In this document: piece after piece, positions 1,670 through 58,290 of the stretch | Position numbering within the stretch: the stretch's first letter is position 1 | How the letters are laid out: every line of letters starts with the position of its first letter | Origin: Candidatus Brocadia sinica JPN1 | GTDB taxonomy: Bacteria > Planctomycetota > Brocadiia > Brocadiales > Brocadiaceae | Reading direction: 5' to 3' | Length of the DNA stretch: 64,000 nt | Assembly: GCF_000949635.1 (NCBI RefSeq) | Contig: NZ_BAFN01000001.1 | Coordinates: 3,531,052 to 3,595,051, forward strand | Made by a program: the position numbers and the translations under genes | Notes under the pieces: model-generated | Seen by the model: the letters and a program-made list of their open reading frames with translations, nothing else | Told to the model about the DNA's origin: nothing | Database searches by the model: none

Positions 1670-3595
1670 TTATAGCTGCTTTTCCTCTTCTTTTTGAATG
1701 TATTGCAGATGCTGTTGAGGTTGTTCTATTGGAGCAACGTCCATTTCTTTATGGGTTTTCGGTTGTTTTTTCTCAATGTTTAACAATTCAAGAACTTGTT
1801 CTCCATCTAATACCTCATTCTCTTCGAGTTTCTTTGCTAACAGATTGAGTTTATCCTTATTATCGTTGAGCAATTTTTTGACCCTATCGTAGTTTCCCAT
1901 GATAAGATTGGTAACCTCTTCATCAATGGCAACGGCTGTTTTTTCACTATATTCTTTTTCTTGAACAAGGTCGTGCCCGAGAAAAATGTTTCCCGATTGC
2001 CTGCCAAAAGTCTGGGGTCCTAATTTTCTGCTCATACCAAATCGGCATACATAACTTCTAGCCAACTGTGAGGCCTTTTCCAGGTCGTTTTGGGCGCCGG
2101 TTGATATTTTGCGTATTGCCAGTTCTTCTGCAGCTCGTCCTCCCAGTAATACACAAAGGGTATCCAGGATTTCAGGTTCTGTGGTCAAGTATTTATCTTC
2201 CAAAGGTAATTGCATAGTATATCCCAGTGCAGCCGTCCCTCTCGGAATTATAGAAACTTTGTGCACGGGATCTGTGTTGGGAAGTAGTGCGGCTACCAAG
2301 GTGTGACCTGCTTCATGGATTGCGACTGCCTTCTTTTCCGTATCGCTCATAATTCTGCTCTTTCGTTCCGGACCAGCTAATACTCTGTCTATGGAGGATT
2401 CCAATTCTTGCATGCCGACTGAGCTCTTATTGTGCCGTGCGGCAAGAAGTGCCGCTTCATTGACAACATTTGCCAGATCTGCCCCCGAAAAACCTGCGGT
2501 GCGTTTTGCGATGACTTTCAAGCTGACATCGGAATCTATCTTTACATTTTTGGCATGAACAGACAGTACAGCCTCTCGGCCAATAAGGTCTGGTCTGTCA
2601 ACAGTTATTTGACGGTCAAAACGCCCCGGGCGTAACAATGCACTATCCAGGACATCAGGTCGGTTGGTCGCAGCAACGATAATAACCCCTTTCTGTGAAT
2701 TAAATCCATCCATCTCGGCCAGAAGCTGGTTAAGAGTCTGTTCACGTTCGTCATGACCGCCACCCAGTCCTGTGCCACGTTGACGGCCAACACTGTCAAT
2801 CTCGTCAATGAAAACAATGCATGGCGCCTTTGCTTTTGCCTGTTCAAACATGTCCCGTACTCGGGCAGCGCCCATTCCAACGAACATTTCGACAAAGTCT
2901 GAACCACTAATTGAGAAAAATGGCACACCTGCTTCACCTGCAACGGCTCTTGCAAGGAGCGTTTTGCCGGTTCCGGGTGGACCGATCAGAAGCACGCCCT
3001 TGGGGATTTTTCCTCCCAGTTTTTGGAATCGCTCCGGGTAAGAAAGAAAGTCTATAATTTCCTTTAGCTCTTCTTTTGCCTCTTCACATCCTGCAACATC
3101 AATGAAAGTTGTCTTCTGTGAACCATTATCTGAATACAACTTAATTTTTGCCTTGCCAAAGGACATAAAAGGAGAACCCATCCCGCCAACCCTTTTAAAG
3201 AGGAAAAACCACCCTAACGCCATGATACCGAAGGGAAATATCCACCACATCAGGATGTTTTTTAAGAAATTATTTTCAGATGCGCCTTTAAACCTGACCT
3301 TCTGTGATTCCAGTTCATTGACGAGTTCTGCGTCTTGTATTGGTACTGTAACGAATGCAATCTTTTCTTCTTTGTCACCTTCACCCGACAATTTTTTGTA
3401 ATGGCCTCGGATAAGATTAGCACCTACCGTGCAGTCTGCTATATATCCATTCTTAAGATAGAGCCTGAACTGGCTGTAAGATATTTCTTCGGCCTTAGGG
3501 GATAAAAATATCTGCGCTACATACATGATGGCAAGAAAAAGCAGGATATATCCAATAGAAAATCGTGACTTCTTGGTTTTGTTTTTTTTATCCAT
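1670..3595 (-). CDS. ftsH: ATP-dependent zinc metalloprotease FtsH
   Basis: A 641-residue membrane AAA+ protease that extracts and degrades membrane and cytosolic proteins as a hexamer. Two N-terminal membrane segments (about residues 13-31 and 113-133) enclose a short periplasmic domain. The AAA module has Walker A GPPGTGKT (205-212), Walker B IVFIDEID (260-267) and the second region of homology around [17 protein letters not shown]. The zinc protease motif HEAGH is at 427-431. The C-terminus ends in a charged tail rich in Q, E and K. Length and motifs are complete, so it should be active. It is convergent with yebC and divergent from the downstream tRNA. Confidence 0.97.
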
Positions 3596-3864: not shown

Positions 3865-4916
3865 CAGGCATTTGCCACTTCTCGCTTTTCCTCAAGTGTA
3901 GTCAAATTGTAGTCAGCTTCTAAAATCTGAACTCCGTCTCTCAAGCTATCTGGACAATGATGACTGTATCGCTGAGTCATCCGTATGTCATGATGACCTA
4001 ATAGCTTTGAAATTTTATAAATATCAATTCCTTTTTGCGCTAACCGCGTTGCAAAGGTATGCCGCAGATCGTGGAAGTGAAAATCCCGTAGACCAGCCTT
4101 TTCTATTGCGATATTAAAAGCCCTTCTCAGATTATGACGGTCAATCTTGTTACCCACGCCACTGGAAAACACCAAATCATTTTTAATATTCCTTATCTTT
4201 GATTTTTCCGTCAGAATATCGAATGCCACCTGGTTCAAAGGAATCGTCCTTGGCTTTCCGCTCTTTGTTTCCTGGATGATTATCGTTCTTCGTAACAGGT
4301 TTACCCTATTCCATTGAAGGGAAAGCAGTTCGCCTTGACGTAATCCAGTATGCAAGTCGAAAATGATAATATTCCGAAGCCATGGAGGAGAAACATTAAG
4401 CAATCTTTTCTTCTCGTCATCGGCCAACCAACGATCTCTATCATTACCCTCTTTCTCTTTGGGAACTTTAGAAACAGGATTATCCTTAATCCATTCCCAC
4501 TCTTTGACTGCTAGGTTAAAAGCCTTTGAGAGCATGGCCAATTCCCTATTAACGGTGGCTGGTTTTGCCTCTTCACTTTTCCTTAACACCTTGTACTCAG
4601 AAATCATCTTGGGAGATATGGACGATAATTTTGATGTACCAAAGAAGGGGATTAAGTGTTTGAGAGATGCGGAATAACTTCGTTGCATACTGATCGACAC
4701 ACTTGGGGCGTGTTCCTTCATAAACTTTTCCATCATATCAGTGAAGGTCTTACTATTTCCGGTAAGCTTTTCAAAGTATTTTCCCTCAACAATTTCAGTT
4801 TTAATCTTTGCCTCTATTGCCTGAGCAAGCTTCTTATCCGCCGTTTCAAGGCTCCTTTGAATTTTCTTGCCTCCATACCTGATGCAAGTCCACCAAACAC
4901 CGCCACGTTTATACAT
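3864..4916 (-). CDS. int: Tyrosine-type site-specific integrase
   Basis: A 350-residue phage-type integrase. The order is an N-terminal arm-binding segment (about 1-60), a SAM-like core-binding domain (about 65-160) and a catalytic domain (about 165-340). Catalytic residues are all visible: R in HTGLRQGELL, the H-x-x-R box HDLRHTFATRLA, LLGHHDIRMT and the nucleophile Y in QRYSHH. The gene abuts attL, its stop codon touching the core, so it very probably catalyses integration at this tRNA. Two TGTAGTCA repeats, likely arm-type sites, lie inside its own 3' end. Confidence 0.95.
   Translation of the reverse strand: MYKRGGVWWTCIRYGGKKIQRSLETADKKLAQAIEAKIKTEIVEGKYFEKLTGNSKTFTDMMEKFMKEHAPSVSISMQRSYSASLKHLIPFFGTSKLSSISPKMISEYKVLRKSEEAKPATVNRELAMLSKAFNLAVKEWEWIKDNPVSKVPKEKEGNDRDRWLADDEKKRLLNVSPPWLRNIIIFDLHTGLRQGELLSLQWNRVNLLRRTIIIQETKSGKPRTIPLNQVAFDILTEKSKIRNIKNDLVFSSGVGNKIDRHNLRRAFNIAIEKAGLRDFHFHDLRHTFATRLAQKGIDIYKISKLLGHHDIRMTQRYSHHCPDSLRDGVQILEADYNLTTLEEKREVANA
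3897..3915 (+). promoter_or_regulatory. Candidate integrase arm-type sites, left
   Basis: Two direct copies of TGTAGTCA start 11 bases apart (3897 and 3908), 33 bases inside the attL core and within the int coding end. The same 19-base block occurs in the same orientation at 19359-19377 near the other end. Paired short repeats flanking a core are the expected form of integrase arm sites; the function is inferred. Confidence 0.55.
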
Positions 4917-4960
4917 TTCCTCCCCCTTTCCCGTGACTGATCGTGTCTGTATGACCGCTA

Positions 4961-5200
4961 TCAGGCATTATAATTGTTTTCGAGAATGTCGCCAACAATC
5001 TTATTGACCGTTTTATCACATTGTTGTGCATCGCGTTTATGGGCTGCCATTATTTGATCTATGTCCTGTAGATCAAAAAGGACACGTCCCCGAAGTTTGA
5101 TTGATGGAATCTTTCTTTGACTTGCCCAATCATAGAGCGTCTTAACCGGCAATGAGGTATATTCGGAAACTTCTTTGATATTTACGTATCGTTTTTCCAT
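4961..5200 (-). CDS. Excisionase-like helix-turn-helix protein
   Basis: A 79-residue protein of the excisionase/HTH_17 (MerR-like winged helix) group: VNIKEVSEYTSLPVKTLYDWASQRKIPSIKLRGRVLFDLQDID has the typical domain order, with recognition helix and the wing ending in VLFD. Such proteins bend DNA as recombination directionality factors or act as small repressors. It lies 45 bases upstream of int on the same strand, the position expected of an Xis. An SD-like stretch lies ahead of the ATG. A second HTH_17 protein is at 12804-13835, so which one drives excision is open. Confidence 0.75.
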   Translation of the reverse strand: MEKRYVNIKEVSEYTSLPVKTLYDWASQRKIPSIKLRGRVLFDLQDIDQIMAAHKRDAQQCDKTVNKIVGDILENNYNA

Positions 5201-5302
5201 AATGATTTTTTATTACCCAATTCACTACCCGGTCAGCATCTCGCAAACCCTTAATTTTTCTGGACTGATTTTTTCACTTGGGTAACAAAAGATTCACTTA
5301 TA

Positions 5303-5611
5303 TTACCCGGCATTTAAAGTACTCACGGTTTGCTTTTTATTTATCATTTCACGTCTGTGTTTTTTGATGATCTCACGTACCCAAAACGAGGTAACTCCAT
5401 ATTTCCTGGCAAGCTCTCCGTAATTACCACCCTTAAACTCTTCGATGATCTTCCGCTTTTTTACCCTGGCTAAGCAAACATCCAATTTAGGCAAATAGAA
5501 TTGTTCCCCGCCTAATTCTCTCCCAAGCTTTACGACGTTCTCAATACCTATTACCATGGCGATTTGTTGATAAGTGGGAGGCAGATCATCCAGACGGATT
5601 TCATTTTCCAT
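5303..5611 (-). CDS. Mor-family transcription activator
   Basis: A 102-residue protein resembling the Mor/C activators of Mu-like phages. Family features seen are LPPTYQQIAMVIGIENVVKLGRELGG, then LPKLD, KIIEEFKGGNYGELARKYGV and the terminal helix-turn-helix TSFWVREIIKK. Mor proteins dimerise through the N-terminal half and activate middle promoters by contacting RNA polymerase. It overlaps the end of the upstream gene by 11 bases, so the two are translationally coupled. A Mor protein in an element run by a tyrosine integrase shows mosaic ancestry. Confidence 0.72.
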   Translation of the reverse strand: MENEIRLDDLPPTYQQIAMVIGIENVVKLGRELGGEQFYLPKLDVCLARVKKRKIIEEFKGGNYGELARKYGVTSFWVREIIKKHRREMINKKQTVSTLNAG

Positions 5612-6089
5612 CAGTCTTTTCCTCCATTTTCAAATAAGGTTTCGTCTCTTTCACAGAGACGTACTTCAGGATATCTGCTTTTACCTTTTCTGGCGCTTCA
5701 ATCCCCAGGGCGTGGTCTGATTCCATGAACTTTTTAAAGTCAGGGGTGGCTTTATATTCCGACTTCTTTTCAAAGAACATCTCAAACAACGGTCCCAACG
5801 GAACTTTTATATCCTCGACCTCATCCTTAACGATATAGGATTCCCGGAACGTAACAACGGCCCGGGCCGTTATTCCGTCAAGTGTAACGGTTGTTGTTTC
5901 CTTCTGCCTGTTCCTGGCAATCTCAATGAGGCGTTCCTGAATGCTGTCAAGTTCTTCATCGAGGTCCTTGATTTTCCTTTTAAGAGATAATCCCCTCTGG
6001 AGAAGTTTTTCAATTTCTGCATCCTCGGCCAGTACAAGGTGTTTCTTCCCGCCGACCTGAACCTTTTTAACCTCTTTTACGCCCTTCAC
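5601..6089 (-). CDS. Hypothetical phage-type protein, coupled to Mor
   Basis: A 162-residue charged protein that I do not recognise. Residues about 25-62 (AEIEKLLQRGLSLKRKIKDLDEELDSIQERLIEI, in part) form a predicted coiled coil; the middle (TTVTLDGITARAVVTFRESY) looks like a small beta sheet; the rest is helical and lysine-rich. There is no signal peptide or membrane segment. Its 3' end overlaps the Mor-like gene by 11 bases, making it the first gene of a short regulatory operon. The size and position resemble early genes of Mu-like phages, but no function is claimed. Confidence 0.6.
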   Translation of the reverse strand: MKGVKEVKKVQVGGKKHLVLAEDAEIEKLLQRGLSLKRKIKDLDEELDSIQERLIEIARNRQKETTTVTLDGITARAVVTFRESYIVKDEVEDIKVPLGPLFEMFFEKKSEYKATPDFKKFMESDHALGIEAPEKVKADILKYVSVKETKPYLKMEEKTDGK

Positions 6090-9362: not shown

Positions 9363-9548
9363 GGTGTAGTAGGTGTAGTAACCCTTATAAATACTGGTGT
9401 TTTTGGTTAAAAAAGGTGTAGTTACAAGGTGTAGTTGACTACACCTTACTACACCTTGACTACACCTCACTACACCACAACTACACCTTGAATAATCTGG
9501 AATCCCTTTATTGGTGCGGGTTACTACACCTACTACACCTACTACACC
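9363..9548. repeat. Iteron-like array, candidate replication origin
   Basis: Twelve exact copies of GGTGTAGT lie in 186 bases: four direct (9363, 9372, 9415, 9428) and eight inverted as ACTACACC (9438, 9448, 9459, 9469, 9480, 9523, 9532, 9541). The five from 9438 to 9480 alternate 10 and 11 bases apart, a 10.5-base helical phase. The outer groups are 9 bases apart, and a 22-base block (9363-9384) is inverted at 9518-9539. The array lies directly downstream of the replication-protein gene. It looks like an initiator-binding origin; a regulatory role is the alternative. Confidence 0.7.
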
Positions 9549-23043: not shown

Positions 23044-25212
23044 ATGTTTGCTTCAAAAGCAAAGAGGCGGATAAGCATAGCAACCAAATTTAATCTTTTA
23101 ACCATTCTTATTATCCTGGTGACTTCGGCAGGAATCAGCTTTTTTCTTGTGCACAATGTAGTTTCTTACAAATACAATAGTCTTGTAAGACATGGCTTAG
23201 TTATTGCCAGCATGGCATCTCAAACGAGTGAATACTACATCTATACAGGAGATACAGAATCTATGATGCAGCTCATTGAGAGCCTGGAAGTGGATGAAGA
23301 TGTTGCTTATGTATGCCTTTTTAATAAAGAAAAAAAACAACTCATGCACAAAAGCTTTAAATACGGCTTAAAAATTCCCCCTGCTCCTGTAACGCGTTTC
23401 ATAGATTGCAGCCCACAGGGAAAAATACTGTATAAAGAATTCTTCAATAAAGAAAATGGAAATCGGTATATTGACATTCTGTCCCCTGTGATTATCTTTG
23501 CCGACAAAAAACCAACAGATATATTGGTGGACAATCAAAAAGGCATAAATCCGGAGATTGCAGGATATGTTCAAGTGGGATTGTCCCTTGAAAATCTTCA
23601 CAAAAGAATAAAACAATTCCTGATATCTGCTTTAGCTTTTACCTCTTTCTTTATCATGGTGGGAGTTATTTTAACCTTATTTCTTACGAAAAGAATCACC
23701 GCTCCCCTCAAGAAGTTGAATTCAGCAACAAAAAATATTTCTGAAGGAATATTCGAACAGCATGTTAATGTCCACACGAATGATGAAATTTCAGATTTTG
23801 CGGGCGCTTTCAACCATATGGTAGAACGCTTACGAGTGTATCGTGATCAACTAAGACACACAGCATTCCACGATCCGTTAACAAACCTGCCCAACAGGAA
23901 TCTTTTCATGGAGCGTTTGGAGCGATTAATTGAGCATGCAAAAAGAGATAAAAATTGTGCGTTTTCTGTGCTATTTCTTGACCTTGATCGTTTCAAGGTT
24001 GTTAATGACAGCCTTGGTCACCTGGCGGGCGATAAATTACTGGTCTTAATTGCACAAAAACTGGAAGAGTGCTTGCGGAAGTCAGATACCGTTGCTCGTT
24101 TTGGAGGGGATGAGTTTGCAATCCTTCTTGATAATGTAGATGACGATTTTAATGCAAAATTTGTGGCAGAAAGAATCCTGGAAATCTTGAAGGATCCTTT
24201 CGTTCTTGATGGTCATAGAATAGTAGTCTCCGCAAGTATTGGAATTGTCTTAAAAGGCGAATTCTATAATCGTCCTGAGGATATCCTGAGGGACGCTGAT
24301 ACAACAATGTACCGGGCAAAGATGAATGGCAAAGCACGGTATGCGGTATTTAATACGGAAATGCATGCCAGCGCAATGAATTTTTTACAGTTAGAAGCGG
24401 ATCTCTGGCATGCTATCGAACGCTCAGAATTAGTAATTTATTATCAACCCATTGTGTCATTAACACGTGATGAGATTGTTGGTTTAGAATCACTCATTCG
24501 CTGGCAGCATCCTCAACGTGGTTTAATTCTGCCAGATGAGTTCATCCCCCTGGCAGAGGAAACCAGAATGATTGATAAAATCGGTCACTGGGTAATACAA
24601 AAGGCCTGTGCTCAAAACAAGGTGTGGCATGATATGGGATTTTCAAACATAACGATTACCGTTAACGTATCAGTCTTACAGCTCCGACACAGGGAATTGC
24701 CGGATCAGGTCAGGGCAACAATTAAAAGCACCGGGTTGCCGGCCGGCGCCTTTAAATTGGAAATCACCGAAAGTACGGTCATGGAAAGCAGAGAGCTTGT
24801 CCTCGAAATATTTAAAGAATTGAATGATATGAAAATACAGCTCATGATGGATGATTTTGGCATCGGTTTTTCTTCAATACATAGCCTGAAAAATCTTCCG
24901 TTCAGCACATTAAAGATCGACCGGTCCTTAATTTCAGATATTGCCATGAATCCAGATGCTTCAGCAATTGTCAAAGCTATCATAGACATGGCTCGCTCTC
25001 TTAAAATAAAGGTAATTGCAGAGGGCGTGGAAACGCAAAGACAGTTGGAATTATTGCGGTTGTATCAGTGTGATTATATACAGGGCTACCTGTTCTACAG
25101 TCCCATGAAGGCTGAGGAAATTACCAATATATTGAGACAGAGAAATAAACCGGCATCAGACACGAATAGTGACATTACGCGTGAGTTTATTACATTATGG
25201 GGTGAAAATTAA
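23044..25212 (+). CDS. Membrane GGDEF-EAL c-di-GMP enzyme
   Basis: A 722-residue transmembrane protein. A first membrane helix (about 14-38) leads to a ~160-residue periplasmic sensor. A second helix (about 198-220) and HAMP linker (to ~275) follow. Then comes the diguanylate cyclase domain with RFGGDEFAILL and an RxxD inhibitory site (RKSD) before it. The EAL domain has GLESLIRWQHP (ESL in place of EAL), EITESTVME, DDFGIGFSS and IAEGVETQ. Both active sites look intact, so it can make or degrade c-di-GMP. It directly follows the binding-protein gene. Confidence 0.93.
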   Translation: MFASKAKRRISIATKFNLLTILIILVTSAGISFFLVHNVVSYKYNSLVRHGLVIASMASQTSEYYIYTGDTESMMQLIESLEVDEDVAYVCLFNKEKKQLMHKSFKYGLKIPPAPVTRFIDCSPQGKILYKEFFNKENGNRYIDILSPVIIFADKKPTDILVDNQKGINPEIAGYVQVGLSLENLHKRIKQFLISALAFTSFFIMVGVILTLFLTKRITAPLKKLNSATKNISEGIFEQHVNVHTNDEISDFAGAFNHMVERLRVYRDQLRHTAFHDPLTNLPNRNLFMERLERLIEHAKRDKNCAFSVLFLDLDRFKVVNDSLGHLAGDKLLVLIAQKLEECLRKSDTVARFGGDEFAILLDNVDDDFNAKFVAERILEILKDPFVLDGHRIVVSASIGIVLKGEFYNRPEDILRDADTTMYRAKMNGKARYAVFNTEMHASAMNFLQLEADLWHAIERSELVIYYQPIVSLTRDEIVGLESLIRWQHPQRGLILPDEFIPLAEETRMIDKIGHWVIQKACAQNKVWHDMGFSNITITVNVSVLQLRHRELPDQVRATIKSTGLPAGAFKLEITESTVMESRELVLEIFKELNDMKIQLMMDDFGIGFSSIHSLKNLPFSTLKIDRSLISDIAMNPDASAIVKAIIDMARSLKIKVIAEGVETQRQLELLRLYQCDYIQGYLFYSPMKAEEITNILRQRNKPASDTNSDITREFITLWGEN

Positions 25213-25283
25213 CTCACTGAAGCGCTGAAGCATTCAAATTTTCTGATCCTCTCACAAAAATATATTGAATGGGAGTGAAAGAT

Positions 25284-26402
25284 ATGAGAAGCAAAAACAC
25301 GGTTATTATATTCTTATTGTTTTGGATGGTCTTTCGTGTCGATAACCTGGCGGATAGCGCGGATGAAACGACAACTTTGCCGGAATCGTATCTTATCTCT
25401 GATGTGCCATATCACGAACAAATAACAGGTCTTTCCTGCGGACCAGCCGCCCTTGAAATACTTTACGATTTTTGGGGCGAAGATATTGATCAAAAGGCCA
25501 TTGCCGATGTTGCCCGATCTTCTTCAATCGGCACCTATACATGGGATATGACGCGTGCTGGTTATTTCAGTCATTTGAGCGCAGCCCAGGGAAGGTTCTT
25601 TCCCCGCAATGCGCCTAAAGCAGGCTATCCGGAAAGACCCCTGGGTTATGCCTCTTTTGATTATTCTTCAGATGCCCCGTGGTGGTCAATCCTTAAAGGA
25701 CTTATTGTTCAAGATATTCCCGTTGTCTTACTCATGAAATTTTCTCCCGATGACGACACCGCACATTATCGGGTAATTGTGGGGTATGATGAAGATTTGG
25801 GAGTAGTTTACTTCGTGGATCCCTGGGGAAGGGACTTTGACAGAGTGACAAACCTTGATGGGACTATCACCTGGAGCATGGCAGACTTTGAAGACGCATG
25901 GAACTATACCGGCTACGGAACTTCACGCCCTTATTGGGGGGCAGTAATGGTGCCGTGGACAGTTGCCATTCACACGACAGGTGAAACAACCGCAGGTTCC
26001 GTACTTGGGGTAACTGCTGAGATTACGTATCCATGTCCTCAGCCATTCGATTGCGCAGCCCATTCTGCCTCCAATGCCAGTGTAGAGATTATCCTACCCA
26101 CAGGGATGTATGTGTTGGGGGGTTCACCCAAAATCGATATTGGATGTTTTCAGGCCGGAGATACTGTTACCGTTACATGGGATGTTATGCTCAATGCCGA
26201 TGGGTTCGGCGCCTCAATTACGGTGAAGGCAACAGGAGTTATAGCCGGCGCTGTGCCGGAAATCGACAAGAAGGGTAAGAACAGTAGGAAGGTGGATAAA
26301 GATAAGGATAAGGATAAGGATAAGGATAGAAAGAATCATAATTTTTATTCTGCCTATGCTTATACCGATGAAATTGGTGTGGAGACAAGCATAGGACTAT
26401 AA
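25284..26402 (+). CDS. Secreted C39-like peptidase-family protein
   Basis: A 372-residue protein with signal peptide (NTVIIFLLFWMVFRVDNLADSAD). The C39_2 papain-like pattern is seen as SDVPYHEQITGLSCGPAALEILYDFWG (catalytic Q/C), TAHYRVIVGYDEDLGVVYFVDPWG (H and D) and a middle GYASFDYSSDAPWW. A C-terminal beta-rich ~100 residues is followed by a run of KD pairs (26298-26330). The start was moved to the ATG at 25284 with SD-like GGGAGTG upstream. It may cleave or bind a peptide outside the membrane; it follows the GGDEF-EAL gene by ~70 bases. Confidence 0.75.
   Translation: MRSKNTVIIFLLFWMVFRVDNLADSADETTTLPESYLISDVPYHEQITGLSCGPAALEILYDFWGEDIDQKAIADVARSSSIGTYTWDMTRAGYFSHLSAAQGRFFPRNAPKAGYPERPLGYASFDYSSDAPWWSILKGLIVQDIPVVLLMKFSPDDDTAHYRVIVGYDEDLGVVYFVDPWGRDFDRVTNLDGTITWSMADFEDAWNYTGYGTSRPYWGAVMVPWTVAIHTTGETTAGSVLGVTAEITYPCPQPFDCAAHSASNASVEIILPTGMYVLGGSPKIDIGCFQAGDTVTVTWDVMLNADGFGASITVKATGVIAGAVPEIDKKGKNSRKVDKDKDKDKDKDRKNHNFYSAYAYTDEIGVETSIGL
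26298..26330 (+). repeat. GATAAG microsatellite coding (KD)n
   Basis: Five successive GATAAG units encode alternating K and D in the C-terminus of the C39-like protein. Unit number may vary between strains. Confidence 0.6.
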
Positions 26403-53917: not shown

Positions 53918-54078
53918 ATAATCCCGAAGGGATGACATGATTATAGAATATCGTTATACCAGTGTTGTTAACCTCGTAGGGGTGATATAGTATCATTGTT
54001 TTCGCAATATTTCACCCCTACGGGGTTGAATATTCTGGTGTGTTTTTTTCTATAATCATGTCATTCCTTTGGGATTAT
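53918..54078. repeat. Long-hairpin repeat (MITE-like), 161 bp
   Basis: Outer arms of 29 bases (53918-53946 and 54050-54078) are inverted with three mismatches; an inner pair (about 53970-53988 against 54007-54027, core GTAGGGGTGA) nests inside. Nothing is coded. The size and the nested arms are like a MITE or a structured-RNA repeat. No target duplication was identified. Confidence 0.65.
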
Positions 54079-54301
54079 GTAATCAATATTTTATTCACTC
54101 GTAGTGGTTGTAGGCAAAAGTCTGCTGAATCGTTATGTTTCATTTTAAAAATCCCTTCAAATTCAAAATCGAAATCGTTCGACTGAGCGCTCACGACGAA
54201 GTCCGAAACAAATGCCCACTATTTTCTTGACAGGGAAAATATTATTGGTAGATTACTTGAGTTTTGAGAAATACCAAAATATGTAAAATAGTGAAGAAAA
54301 T

Positions 54302-54428
54302 ATAGCGACAAAGGCAAACCCTGAGTGATCAGGGGACGCAAAGTAACAGGGTCTCTGGGTTTGCACGACGAAGAAACTCCAGCAGCAGCAGCAGCAGCAG
54401 CAGAAAGATAGCCTTACTGCCGAAGATG
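54302..54428 (+). ncRNA. c-di-GMP-I (GEMM) riboswitch
   Basis: The aptamer signature is clear: AAAGGCAAACC, a GTGA-looped P2 hairpin (CCCTGA/TCAGGG), GGGACGCAAAG, then AGGGTCT and the closing AGCC..ACTGCCGA. The base equivalent to Vc2 position 20 appears to be G, which favours c-di-GMP over cGAMP. P3 is enlarged by a (CAG)8 run. It lies ahead of a surface-protein gene and overlaps a terminator, so c-di-GMP would decide read-through. Covariance-model scoring would settle the class. Confidence 0.85.
54380..54403 (+). repeat. (CAG)8 microsatellite inside the riboswitch
   Basis: Eight perfect CAG triplets lie between the P3 helix and the conserved 3' strand of the aptamer. Triplet runs can vary by slippage. 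Confidence 0.85.
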
Positions 54429-54470
54429 TTTTTTTACAAACATTTTTTAGCAGTAAGGCTTTTTTGTTTT
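54410..54470 (+). terminator. Intrinsic terminator of the riboswitch
   Basis: AGCCTTACTGC (54410-54420) pairs perfectly with GCAGTAAGGCT (54450-54460), with an inner ATGTTT/AAACAT helix, followed by TTTTTGTTTT. The 5' arm is the aptamer's own conserved end, so ligand binding and termination compete. Confidence 0.85.
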
Positions 54471-54852
54471 AAGAAACATTGTAACAATTTTGCTCTTTGA
54501 AAAAGGGTAGAGTTGAATCATTGTGTTTAGCCACTGTGGAAGCTTCGTGGTGAGTTTTTGGCGCAAGGTGCGACAAATGGGCTCAACGGTTGGGTTGAGG
54601 AACGAAACCCGACGTTTTGGTAAACATAAGGCGGTTTTAAGTTTTGCTCTCGTTTTAACCAGCATACTTAACTGGACCTTAAAAGATTTGTTTTCGTTGA
54701 ATACATTTTTTAAGAGAGGAGAAATGCCCCAAAGAAACTTTTTCATGGTATTGAGTACATGAAAACATAAGGTATATCCTGTGTTATATGAATGAACTTA
54801 TTTTTAATGTAATGTTATATCGGCAATGATTGTGGAAAGGAGCAGGAATAAA
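54471..54852. other. Leader between terminator and surface-protein gene
   Basis: A 380-base stretch with two small overlapping frames on opposite strands (54523-54762 plus, 54447-54746 minus). Neither has a clear SD or family resemblance, so I do not call a gene. A weak promoter could lie near 54780-54830 (TTATATGAATG, TAATGTTATA). Confidence 0.35.
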
Positions 54853-56767
54853 ATGCATAAGTACTGGCTAATAGTTGTTATGGTACTTTTGTCGGGGATA
54901 AGTAAGTACGGTTATGCAAAGGATATGGGTTCAGAACTAAAAGACAATAGCGCAGACAGTGGTTTTTCTATAACGGAGAAAACAAACGATAGCACGATCG
55001 CCCGTTTCCGTGGAGATGGAAAGGTGGGTATCGGCACAGCTGACCCCAACGCGACACTGGATGTGTGGGGAAACATCGGGATTAACGGTATTTCCATTAT
55101 TAACAATTCCGGTCAGTGGGTTGGTGATACGACCGGGTTGGTTGGACCGGAAGGGTCTCAGGGGCCTCCAGGTCCGCAGGGGCCACACAGGGTATTCGGG
55201 TGAAACAGGAGCACAAGGCCCGCAAGGGGAACAAGGTCCCCAGGGTATGGCAGGGCCGATATGACCCATAGGGCCACAGGGGCCGCAAGGTGAAACTGGC
55301 GCGCAGGGGCCTCAATGGCTTCCGGGACCAATTGCAGGCATAACTAAGCAAATCACCTATAATGACAATGGAAATGCTGCTGGTGCTGAGGTTTATTATG
55401 ATAAAGCCAATGGTTATGTTGGTATTGGAATTGAGAATCCTAGCACCCCCTTGAATGTTGCCGGGTCTGTTTTGATAAGTGGTGCTAATAATAAATTGGT
55501 TGTGGATGGCAATGTGACTGGAAACCAGGGCGTTATTTTAGATGCTGCAAACAATATGGGAAGGATTGTATTGTCTGGTGGTGCCGGTGGTTTTATTATT
55601 GGGAGAAAAAGCGAGAGCGACGATGTTTACTTTTCTCATAATTATGGTTTAGAGCTTTCAACAGGTAATTTTCGTCCCATTACTTTAAACAGCGTAAATG
55701 TTAACGTGGGTCGGACAGAACTACCAACAACAATGCAAGTTATAGGTACCGTTAATGCTATTTCCTTTATGGGCGATGGTTCCGGGCTTACGGGAGTGAC
55801 TGTGACAGAGACAGATCCTGTTTATAGCGATAGCATTGCATCGGGGATTTCAGTTGCTGATATTGGTAACTGGAATACGGCATTTGGATGGGGGGATCAT
55901 GCTACCGCAGGATACTTAACCAGCTTTACTGAGACAGACCCCACAATTCCTGCAAGCTTGAAGGACGGAATAAGCTGGGGTGAGATTGGCAGCAGGCCTC
56001 CTAGATTGGACGATGGGGATGATGTCGGGATTACTACTGAGAGTGATCCCACAGTTCCCGCAAATTTGAAGGATGGGGTGAGTTGGGGTGAGGTATCAAG
56101 CATACCTCCTGATATTGCTGATGGTGACCAGGTTGGTATTGTTTCTGAGGTTGATCCTCAAGTGGGTACAAATACCACGAACTATGTTTCCAAATGGAAC
56201 GGTTCTCAACTTGTTACGGGAACGATCTTTGACAATGGGAATATTGGTATTGGAGTTCCAGCTCCTAATGCTAAACTTGATGTGTCGGGAGCTTGTAAAA
56301 TATCTGGTTCAGGTGATGTAGGAAGTGCACATTATGCTATTGTTAATACAACAAAAACAACTCCTGGAAGTGCATATAGATGGATTATTTATAATATGAC
56401 CGGTGTATATGGTGATAAATTAAGTTTCTGGTCTTATGATTTTACAAATCCATGTTCCGGAGGAATGTGTGATGAAAGGTTTTCCATCTATGATAATGGA
56501 GATGTTTATGTTCCCGGCAATGTCGGCATTGGTACAACAAATCCTGCACAGAAACTCCATGTAGTAAGTACTGCACCAGATGCCTCTGCTACCGGTATTG
56601 CCCATTTCGAGGCGACATCTTCCAATAACCGATATATTAAAGTCAAAGGAAGTGCTGTGGAAGCGAACTTTGGAATTGGATCATTGACTCCACACGGGTA
56701 TGCATGGTCTAACCCGCATTTTTCACAGAGGGTAATTTGTAATATCAAAAGGTTTCAAAATACATAA
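54853..56767 (+). pseudogene. Collagen-like, tail-fibre-like surface protein, broken
   Basis: Start at ATG 54853 with AAAGGAG upstream and a signal peptide (YWLIVVMVLLSGISKYGYA). Parts in order: [24 protein letters not shown], a collagen-type Gly-X-Y run ([14 protein letters not shown], then [16 protein letters not shown]), a NVAGSV-type coiled region, repeated ETDPTIPASLKDGISWGEI units and further VGIGTTNPAQKLHV units. A frameshift near 55190, a TGA at 55262 and a missing C-terminus (replaced by the IS side) break it. Its leader has the c-di-GMP riboswitch. It was probably an adhesin or sheath-like protein. Confidence 0.8.
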
Positions 56768-56819
56768 TGAGTTTGGTATCCAAGACTGATTTTTCTGCTT
56801 TTATGCATCAACATTGAAT

Positions 56820-58290
56820 ATCCTCATCGTTTTATTGATAAAAACCCGGGAGATGCTATCAAAAGGCGTATTTGGGGCGTAGCGCTCCCGTCCGGCTTAG
56901 CAATCATACTTACAATGGTAAATCTTTTTTGAACTTCAACAGAGCATTGGATACGCTTTACGAATGTTTTGAAAAGCGCGCTGAAAGACTTCTTTATAGG
57001 GATAAGCACTGGACAGGCAAACTGCGATTCTCCTTACACTCACCTTTACCTGTGCGCCAATCTTGAGCAGTTTTGTTCGGATCGTGCTGCACTGTGCTTG
57101 TGAGAATTCTGTTGAACAAAGCCCTATCCGTCTTAATTCGTTGAGTAACACATAAGCCACTGACGAGAACCACAGCCTCAGTTGATTGGCACGCATCGTC
57201 TCTGTACTTGTCCGGTCGGCAAACAAATGTAACTGCTGTTCCTTGATCCTGTTTTCCATCTCCCCCCGTGCACAATACTCTTGCTCGTAAAGACTCCTGG
57301 CATCTTTCTCCTCCGATTTTAGTGATGTTACTACAAACCGGGGATTTGGCCCCTTCTCTAAATATTCCACCTTGCCCACTACCCGACGACCCTTGGACCA
57401 ACTCTTCACCGTTTTATAGAAAAAATCTTTATACACCCTGGATGCTCTTCCTGTCTGCTCATATTGTTTTCTTGCCTCTTCCATTTCGCCTTGTATCTCT
57501 TCTTGTAATCGAGAATTCCTTGCAAGCCCAAAAAGATAGTCTACATGGTTTGCTTCACACCAACTCATGATTTCTTCCCTCGCAGACCCCGAATCGCCCC
57601 GCACCACAATTTTCACCTCAGGCCACTGGTTCCGAACGTGATTGACGACCCGCTCTATCTCCTCTTTTGCCCCTTCGCTTGCATCCACCCCTGATGTCCT
57701 TAATTTCGCACATAACAAATAGTCATCGCAAAATATGTACAAGGGTAAATAACAATACTCCCCGTAATATCCATGGAAAAAACGACCTTCCTGGCTCCCG
57801 TGTATCGGATCATCCGTCGCATCCAAATCCAAAACAATCTTGCTTCGCCTATCCTGCCCTGTCGGGTCTTTCTTCTTGCACAAAACTGCCAACAATGGGT
57901 CTATCCTCAATTGATCATGATCATTCAAGTCCTCATATCCTAACGCTATCCCATATATCCTCTGTGATAATAATTCTTCTACTGTATGCTCTATTGCGCC
58001 CTGATCCCGATAATCGGTAAAACACTTTGAAAACTCTTTCATGAAACCTCTTGCCTGTTCTAATTCTCTCAGTAACAGGCCTCCGGCGTCGGTTGTTATT
58101 TGCCCTCCATTAAATTGCGATATTACCTTCCTTCCGCTTAACCCTTGATACTCTATTGCATCTTTACACCCTGTTTTCACCTTCAACCCTCCTCTTGCTA
58201 TGTATAATCTGTTCTTTACAAACATCTTATACCATAAATATCGAGGGTTGTCTAACATATCGGTGAGAAATCCGGGCTAGAATGCAAATG
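56820..58290 (-). mobile_element. IS1380-family insertion sequence
   Basis: An insertion sequence whose transposase fills most of the span. The ends are approximate: CCCGG-containing segments at about 56846 and 58276 are in inverse orientation, but I could not define the terminal repeats or a target duplication. It lies between the broken surface-protein gene and the phage-like segment, and probably cut both. Confidence 0.7.
56936..58180 (-). CDS. IS1380-family transposase
   Basis: A 414-residue DDE transposase when begun at the GTG at 58180 (KTGCKDAIEYQGLSGRKVI); an open frame to 58258 continues upstream. Family parts: ITTDAGGLLLRELEQA, VLDLDATDDPIHGSQEGRFFHGYYGEYCYLPLYIF (in part, first Asp), KIVVRGDSGSAREEIMSWCE (second Asp) and NQLRLWFSSVAYVLLNELRRIGL (Glu region). 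It looks intact. Confidence 0.92.
   Translation of the reverse strand: MKTGCKDAIEYQGLSGRKVISQFNGGQITTDAGGLLLRELEQARGFMKEFSKCFTDYRDQGAIEHTVEELLSQRIYGIALGYEDLNDHDQLRIDPLLAVLCKKKDPTGQDRRSKIVLDLDATDDPIHGSQEGRFFHGYYGEYCYLPLYIFCDDYLLCAKLRTSGVDASEGAKEEIERVVNHVRNQWPEVKIVVRGDSGSAREEIMSWCEANHVDYLFGLARNSRLQEEIQGEMEEARKQYEQTGRASRVYKDFFYKTVKSWSKGRRVVGKVEYLEKGPNPRFVVTSLKSEEKDARSLYEQEYCARGEMENRIKEQQLHLFADRTSTETMRANQLRLWFSSVAYVLLNELRRIGLCSTEFSQAQCSTIRTKLLKIGAQVKVSVRRIAVCLSSAYPYKEVFQRAFQNIRKAYPMLC

Follow-up and report, generated by a model that had tools for sequence, protein, structure and literature searches.

A c-di-GMP-I riboswitch with a CAG triplet array in Candidatus Brocadia sinica, and repeat turnover in the P3 tips of related riboswitches

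Repeats inside RNA genes are known from Rickettsia, whose palindromic elements are self-complementary and able to form a hairpin. Among riboswitches of the GEMM-I type (c-di-GMP-I, Rfam RF01051), that of Geobacter metallireducens pilM follows an ON logic, in which the terminator takes in a strand of the aptamer, so that only one of the two can form (PMC9262584). We looked in open-licence papers for work linking riboswitches with triplet repeats, slippage, phase variation, palindromic elements, anammox or Brocadia, and also for GEMM with Geobacter and for tandem repeats in Brocadia; passages of PMC11224092, PMC9262584, PMC5854607, PMC4913261 and PMC1590033 make no mention of repeats in the arms of riboswitches.

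The window, by which we mean the entire 64,000-nucleotide stretch of Candidatus Brocadia sinica JPN1 DNA that was analysed (contig NZ_BAFN01000001.1, positions 3,531,052 to 3,595,051), contains a riboswitch of the GEMM-I type. Its parts, in window coordinates, are these:

54299 to 54303, forward strand: P1 5' strand AAUAU, which pairs with AUGUU at 54426 to 54430, standard pairs verified
54303 to 54424, forward strand: c-di-GMP-I riboswitch aptamer (RF01051), 56.8 bits against a cut-off of 35, E 1.9e-8
54319 to 54334, forward strand: P2 hairpin CCCUGA-GUGA-UCAGGG with a GNRA loop, from alignment and folding
54355 to 54406, forward strand: P3 tip of 52 nt, a hairpin CUGG-GUUU..AAAC-U-CCAG and then the CAG tract, from sequence and folding
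54380 to 54403, forward strand: perfect (CAG)8 triplet array in the distal P3 arm, from a repeat search
54410 to 54420, forward strand: aptamer 3' strand, which is also the terminator 5' arm, from folding
54450 to 54465, forward strand: 3' arm and U run of an intrinsic terminator, from sequence and folding

An earlier note on this DNA had called a class I c-di-GMP aptamer here and had named a low covariance score as the finding that would speak against it; the score is high, 56.8 bits where 35 suffice. The likeness to RF01051 covers the core, the P1/P2/P3 layout, the GNRA loop on P2, and the GCAAAG and CUGCC strands, and includes the location in front of a gene whose product has a signal-like N-terminus. 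P1 has extra pairs between CG at 54306 to 54307 and CG at 54421 to 54422, the base of P3 is built from AGUA/UACU, AGG/CCU and GUCU/AGAU, and every pair in P1, P2 and the P3 base is standard in the window sequence. Two differences from the family both concern P3: the 52 nt tip with its CAG array, and the consensus segment UAAg..uAuG, which is unmatched in the window alignment. The core reads GGCAAA, GCAAAG and CUGCC, by sequence and RF01051 alignment, and we take bases in these three strings to be ligand contacts of c-di-GMP type (G20, A47 and C92). To judge from them, the window aptamer would sense c-di-GMP. The pilM riboswitch instead senses cGAMP, whereas the window bases taken as G20, A47 and C92 are of the c-di-GMP type. 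An assignment to the c-di-GMP-I-GGC family (RF03167) was considered and set aside, since the score of 57.7 bits falls below the cut-off of 59; the GGC consensus reads GCGAAG in place of the window's GCAAAG.

The terminator 5' arm had also been placed inside the aptamer, and that is where it lies: positions 54410-54420 are common to both structures, with AGCCTTACTGC of the aptamer 3' strand (54410-54420) pairing with GCAGTAAGGCT (54450-54460) in an 11-bp terminator stem, followed by TTTTTT. The expression platform is therefore exclusive with the aptamer, the same ON-type arrangement that is described for pilM (PMC9262584). None of 200 shuffles folds as well as the full strand (z -4.1), and in the full strand the folding model places the terminator fold about 21 kcal/mol below the aptamer fold. 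Because the terminator fold is favoured, termination would be the default and c-di-GMP would have to act during transcription. From this layout one would expect an ON switch. In the RNA free of ligand, AGCCUUACUGC would depart from the aptamer and build the terminator; with c-di-GMP bound, AGCCUUACUGC would be kept in P3 and transcription would continue. A strict terminator test, which asks for an 8-mer able to pair with an arm further downstream that is followed by a T run, was positive for 48 of the 56 riboswitches of the same genome, for 36 of 45 in G008, and for 28 of 35 in G005 (AMX1, which like G006, MAG_8, is a genome of the window's genus). Many of the failures show an arm with mismatches, while two copies in the window's own genome (10559 and 4031780) show no such arm.

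Behind the riboswitch, the window contains a damaged gene and an insertion sequence (IS):

54853 to 55203, forward strand: 5' piece of a surface-protein gene, with a signal-like N-terminus and the beginning of Gly-X-Y repeats, by direct reading
55204 to 56707, forward strand: rest of the gene, read in a different frame, interrupted by an in-frame TGA (55262-55264) and ended by the IS, by sequence reading
56708 to 58281, reverse strand: insertion sequence bounded by terminal inverted repeats, with a DDE_Tnp_1_4 transposase at 56939-58258

The collagen-like surface protein proposed as the regulatory target does have its Gly-X-Y repeats, but the gene is broken and IS-truncated. Its frame stops at 55203, the collagen-like repeat resumes in a different frame, and an open frame from 55268 enters the IS at about 56708. 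A frameshift, an in-frame stop and an IS truncation mark it as a truncated pseudogene; sequencing errors could account for the two frame breaks, but not for the IS truncation. The pieces match no Pfam or NCBIfam family above cut-off, and a 438-aa part has no full-length homologue among the ten other genomes of the genus, where the only matches are one of 32 residues in G010 and some short C-terminal ones within the IS end. The IS occurs at about 99% identity at three other places in the genome. These three copies lack about 144 nt (57626-57773), and may for that reason be internally deleted. A second protein, encoded at 23044-25212, had been named as the maker of c-di-GMP. It has HAMP, GGDEF and EAL domains, and a GGDEF sequence, an ESL motif and an RKSD site can be read in its translation. 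With this architecture it could make or degrade c-di-GMP, and its sole link to the riboswitch is that both belong to one genome.

A target gene that is broken and carries an IS would suit an explanation in which riboswitch and gene together are a relic, with binding or switching lost and the CAG tract having expanded once selection was gone. The aptamer score also sits in the lower half of the genome's 56 RF01051 matches (rank 36-37), and the P3 tip includes GGGUUUGC, which is complementary to GCAAACCC of the core and is absent from all other tips among the 132 parsed; pairing of GGGUUUGC with GCAAACCC, a possible misfold unique to the window copy, could disturb the aptamer. The core, P2, the P3 base and the terminator arms are nevertheless all intact, and the score is far above the cut-off, so that we consider a relic unlikely, if worth keeping in view.

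The repeat in P3 is as first described, eight perfect CAG triplets. It is the sole perfect triplet array of at least four units in the 284,354 bases of the genome that were examined, and twenty dinucleotide shuffles of the window produced zero triplet arrays of at least six. Exact (CAG)6 occurs at one genomic place only, that of the window, and in none of the ten other genomes of the genus. A scan for CAG-type P3 arms against the genome_contigs collection (84,980 species, with records near JPN1 possibly omitted) returned four records, all from other Candidatus Brocadia MAGs. Their arms hold 2, 3, 3 and 2 units (the last reading CAA CAG CAG) against eight in the window, and end in CAGCAG, CAGCAGCAG, CAGCAGCAG and CAACAGCAG ahead of AAAGA. 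When aligned, the window arm is longer by exactly 15 nt, or five triplets, than three of the relatives and by 18 than the fourth, while the terminal CAGCAG preceding AAAGA is kept in all five arms. Two of the records, L131 and L133, are one locus in two species, behind a gene that by reading appears peroxiredoxin-like, and have equal tip lengths. Because the number of triplets differs among related arms (eight against two to three), the tract has expanded or contracted over evolution. In the window lineage it has probably lengthened to eight units, starting from two or three; growth is preferred to contraction because all four relatives, none of them established as the window's own locus, have two or three.

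One could instead suppose that the length of the repeat is an artefact of assembly, as there is a single assembly, without reads. This seems exceedingly improbable for a 24-bp tract that is shorter than any common read length, sits in a 4.03-Mb contig of chromosome size, and has its flanks and the terminator intact.

Candidatus Brocadia is an ammonium-oxidising (anammox) planctomycete, and its riboswitches of this class are numerous. RF01051 matches the window's own genome (G000, 4.08 Mb) at 56 places with E <= 0.001, 55 of them above cut-off; each of eleven genomes in the genus has between 20 and 56, and one or more are present in 47 of the order's 62 genomes, with 28 the highest count outside the genus. 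These numbers point to a large c-di-GMP regulon in Brocadia, and the 56 matches in one genome suggest that c-di-GMP regulates transcription broadly in anammox bacteria, a role for which we found no account in the open-licence literature. By their N-termini, the genes behind the 56 matches are of many unlike kinds, including exported proteins, regulators, and a polysaccharide-export-like transporter. Tandem pairs of c-di-GMP-I riboswitches with similar sequences occur in two species, one pair in each, at L180 (G008:C7:153554 and 153772) and L200 (G005:C17:8997 and 9212).

Within the one genome, the cores of the 56 copies are alike and the P3 tips very dissimilar. Tips were sorted by eye and by pattern into those with a ACANGGANG motif, those with 9-nt palindromic units of the TTTAAACNG type, those with other palindromes (TTTTCCTGC..., GTAGGGGCGTATTGC...), and the CAG class. 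Allowing one mismatch and joining hits within 100 nt, the 15-mer GTTTAAACNGTTTAA is found at 35 places in the genome, 15 of which are inside aptamers, which in total occupy 6.0 kb of the 4.08 Mb. Another palindrome, GGGGCGTATTGCAATACGCCC, is dispersed over nine of the eleven genomes, and examples of its copies in P3 are at C14:9660 and C65:21262 of G005, C86:14343 of G006, and C1:165102 of G008.

For comparison between species, aptamers were extracted by coordinates (56 from the window's genome, 45 from G008, 35 from G005), and 132 of the 136 tips could be parsed. Ortholog pairs between the window's genome and G008 or G005 were reciprocal best downstream DNA matches of at least 300 bits; one pair (2849512 with G008 C28:16540) was dropped for an unparsed tip, leaving 27 with parsed tips and a median core identity of 0.97. 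Tip length changed by at least 3 nt in nine of the twelve pairs with 9-nt units in either tip, against one of twelve without repeats (Fisher p 0.0028), and, where both flanks match, in seven of nine repeat-tip pairs against none of seven others (p 0.0032); both p values serve as a guide, because the classes and the 300-bit limit were set after the tips had been viewed and some members from the window's genome occur in two pairs, which makes the pairs non-independent. Downstream identity is about equal for repeat-tip and other pairs, with medians of 87.5 and 88.0%. Three pairs with other palindromes only, outside the twelve-to-twelve comparison, have length changes of 1, 3 and 0 nt and tip identities of 0.84, 0.55 and 1.0. 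The clearest single case is C1:2236590 and its partner G008 C4:43133, whose tips of 46 and 55 nt are one 9-nt unit apart between flanks that are about 98% identical. In three other pairs the whole tip is a different palindrome (113680 and G008 C38:9808; 2570007 and G005 C14:9603; 3830787 and G005 C65:21206). The Rickettsia palindromic elements differ from this pattern, since in Brocadia it is 9-nt tandem units together with other palindromes that lie in riboswitch arms, and their copy number changes between sister species. A P3 tip with an apparent partial copy of the aptamer 3' strand (AAGACAGCCTTA in the window's genome) is present at C1:3462807-3462926 and at G008 C38:1378-1497, kept, with changes, in both species.

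We favour, with somewhat better than even confidence, a reading in which the window holds a c-di-GMP-I ON switch whose P3 tip tolerates the turnover of repeats, with a CAG expansion that is near-neutral and a controlled gene that has decayed. The distal tip, outside the conserved core, would tolerate inserts of many kinds, and the tips of Brocadia would gain, lose and exchange repeats, namely 9-nt palindromic units, dispersed palindromes and, here, CAG. P3 tips are then probably permissive sites of near-neutral repeat turnover, of which the CAG array would be one unusual case. Against shuffles, z is below -1 for all 39 nonamer tips, all 13 palindrome tips and 17 of 40 tips of the ACANGGANG class, but for none of four CAG-class arms (median z +0.4); because these four fold no better than shuffles, CAG is without the hairpin-preserving property of the other repeats. 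That the expansion was near-neutral for the switch is most likely, in our judgement.

The earlier note had taken another course, in which slippage of the triplets could tune folding and make the riboswitch phase-variable. On that reading the balance of aptamer and terminator would shift, and expression of the surface protein would vary from cell to cell. The purity of the uninterrupted tract and the differing unit number among related arms are what such a locus might show, and the predicted cost of forming the core does change at low unit number, from 4.7 kcal/mol without CAG to 7.5 at two units and 9.2 at five. From seven to twenty units, however, the cost is flat at 8.6-8.7 kcal/mol, in a nearest-neighbour model that omits tertiary contacts and ligand, and slippage around eight would for this reason not be expected to alter folding. 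Moreover, the repeat does not act on an intact gene, the target being broken and IS-truncated; a MutS gene is present in the genome; the sole same-locus pair of CAG-type arms, L131 and L133, has equal tip lengths; and (CAG)6 is found nowhere else in the genus. We have accordingly dropped phase variation as the main reading, and hold it to be very improbable.

The same flattening of the predicted effect bears on an explanation in which the tract is itself an element, its GCAG sites competing for CUGC, or a protein binding it, and the threshold of switching being set in this way. In its favour, GCAG is complementary to the CUGC of the terminator arm; when the aptamer fragment is folded freely with 2, 8 and 12 units, GCAG:CUGC pairing is used; and the last CAGCAG before AAAGA is kept in five of five arms. 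Such pairing is of 4 bp only, however, the tips of sister switches are unrelated and without a GCAG motif, and the predicted effect saturates; an element of this sort is quite improbable. We return to near-neutral turnover as the preferred account of the CAG tract.

Degenerate 9-nt units of the P3-tip type are found in a second riboswitch class (RF00174 alignment, 81.0 and 82.6 bits), at two of the places outside the c-di-GMP aptamers:

L218, 619 to 893, reverse strand: cobalamin riboswitch with 9-nt units
L223, 513 to 796, reverse strand: cobalamin riboswitch with 9-nt units

In both, the units sit in the same variable arm, flanked by CCACUGGAAA and CGGGAAGG, and the alignment shows them as insertions 32 and 42 positions long. 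A bolder proposal treats the distal P3 arm as an exchangeable repeat cassette and an evolvable knob, whereby gain and loss of 9-nt units, swapped palindromes or triplets would shift the folding rate or threshold of some fifty c-di-GMP switches separately, and of cobalamin switches too through the 9-nt units. It is decidedly unlikely in our view; if it were true, repeat turnover would re-set an entire second-messenger regulon. Riboswitch arms outside the ligand pocket are usually regarded as fixed. In this genus one core comes with many naturally occurring, repeat-built arms, some of them one 9-nt unit apart in DNA that is otherwise nearly identical, and with these variants one can ask directly whether the length of a peripheral arm tunes a riboswitch or is neutral.

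Repeats of similar kinds occur in other settings. Long degenerate arrays of 9-nt repeats lie both between genes and inside genes of L213 (1700-2080, 2540-2730 and 5090-5180). There the units occur in frame inside a Cas6 gene (4654-5634, reverse strand; Pfam), and also at the start of a protein of the 23S rRNA-intervening-sequence type (2056-2694, reverse strand; Pfam). In the window, a palindromic element whose inverted repeats are nested, with arms of 31 nt that are 94% complementary, stands upstream of the riboswitch at 53918-54078, a tandem repeat of the 9-nt unit TACTACACC at 9435-9548, and a tandem repeat of the 6-nt unit GGATAA at 26294-26328, within the gene at 25269-26402.
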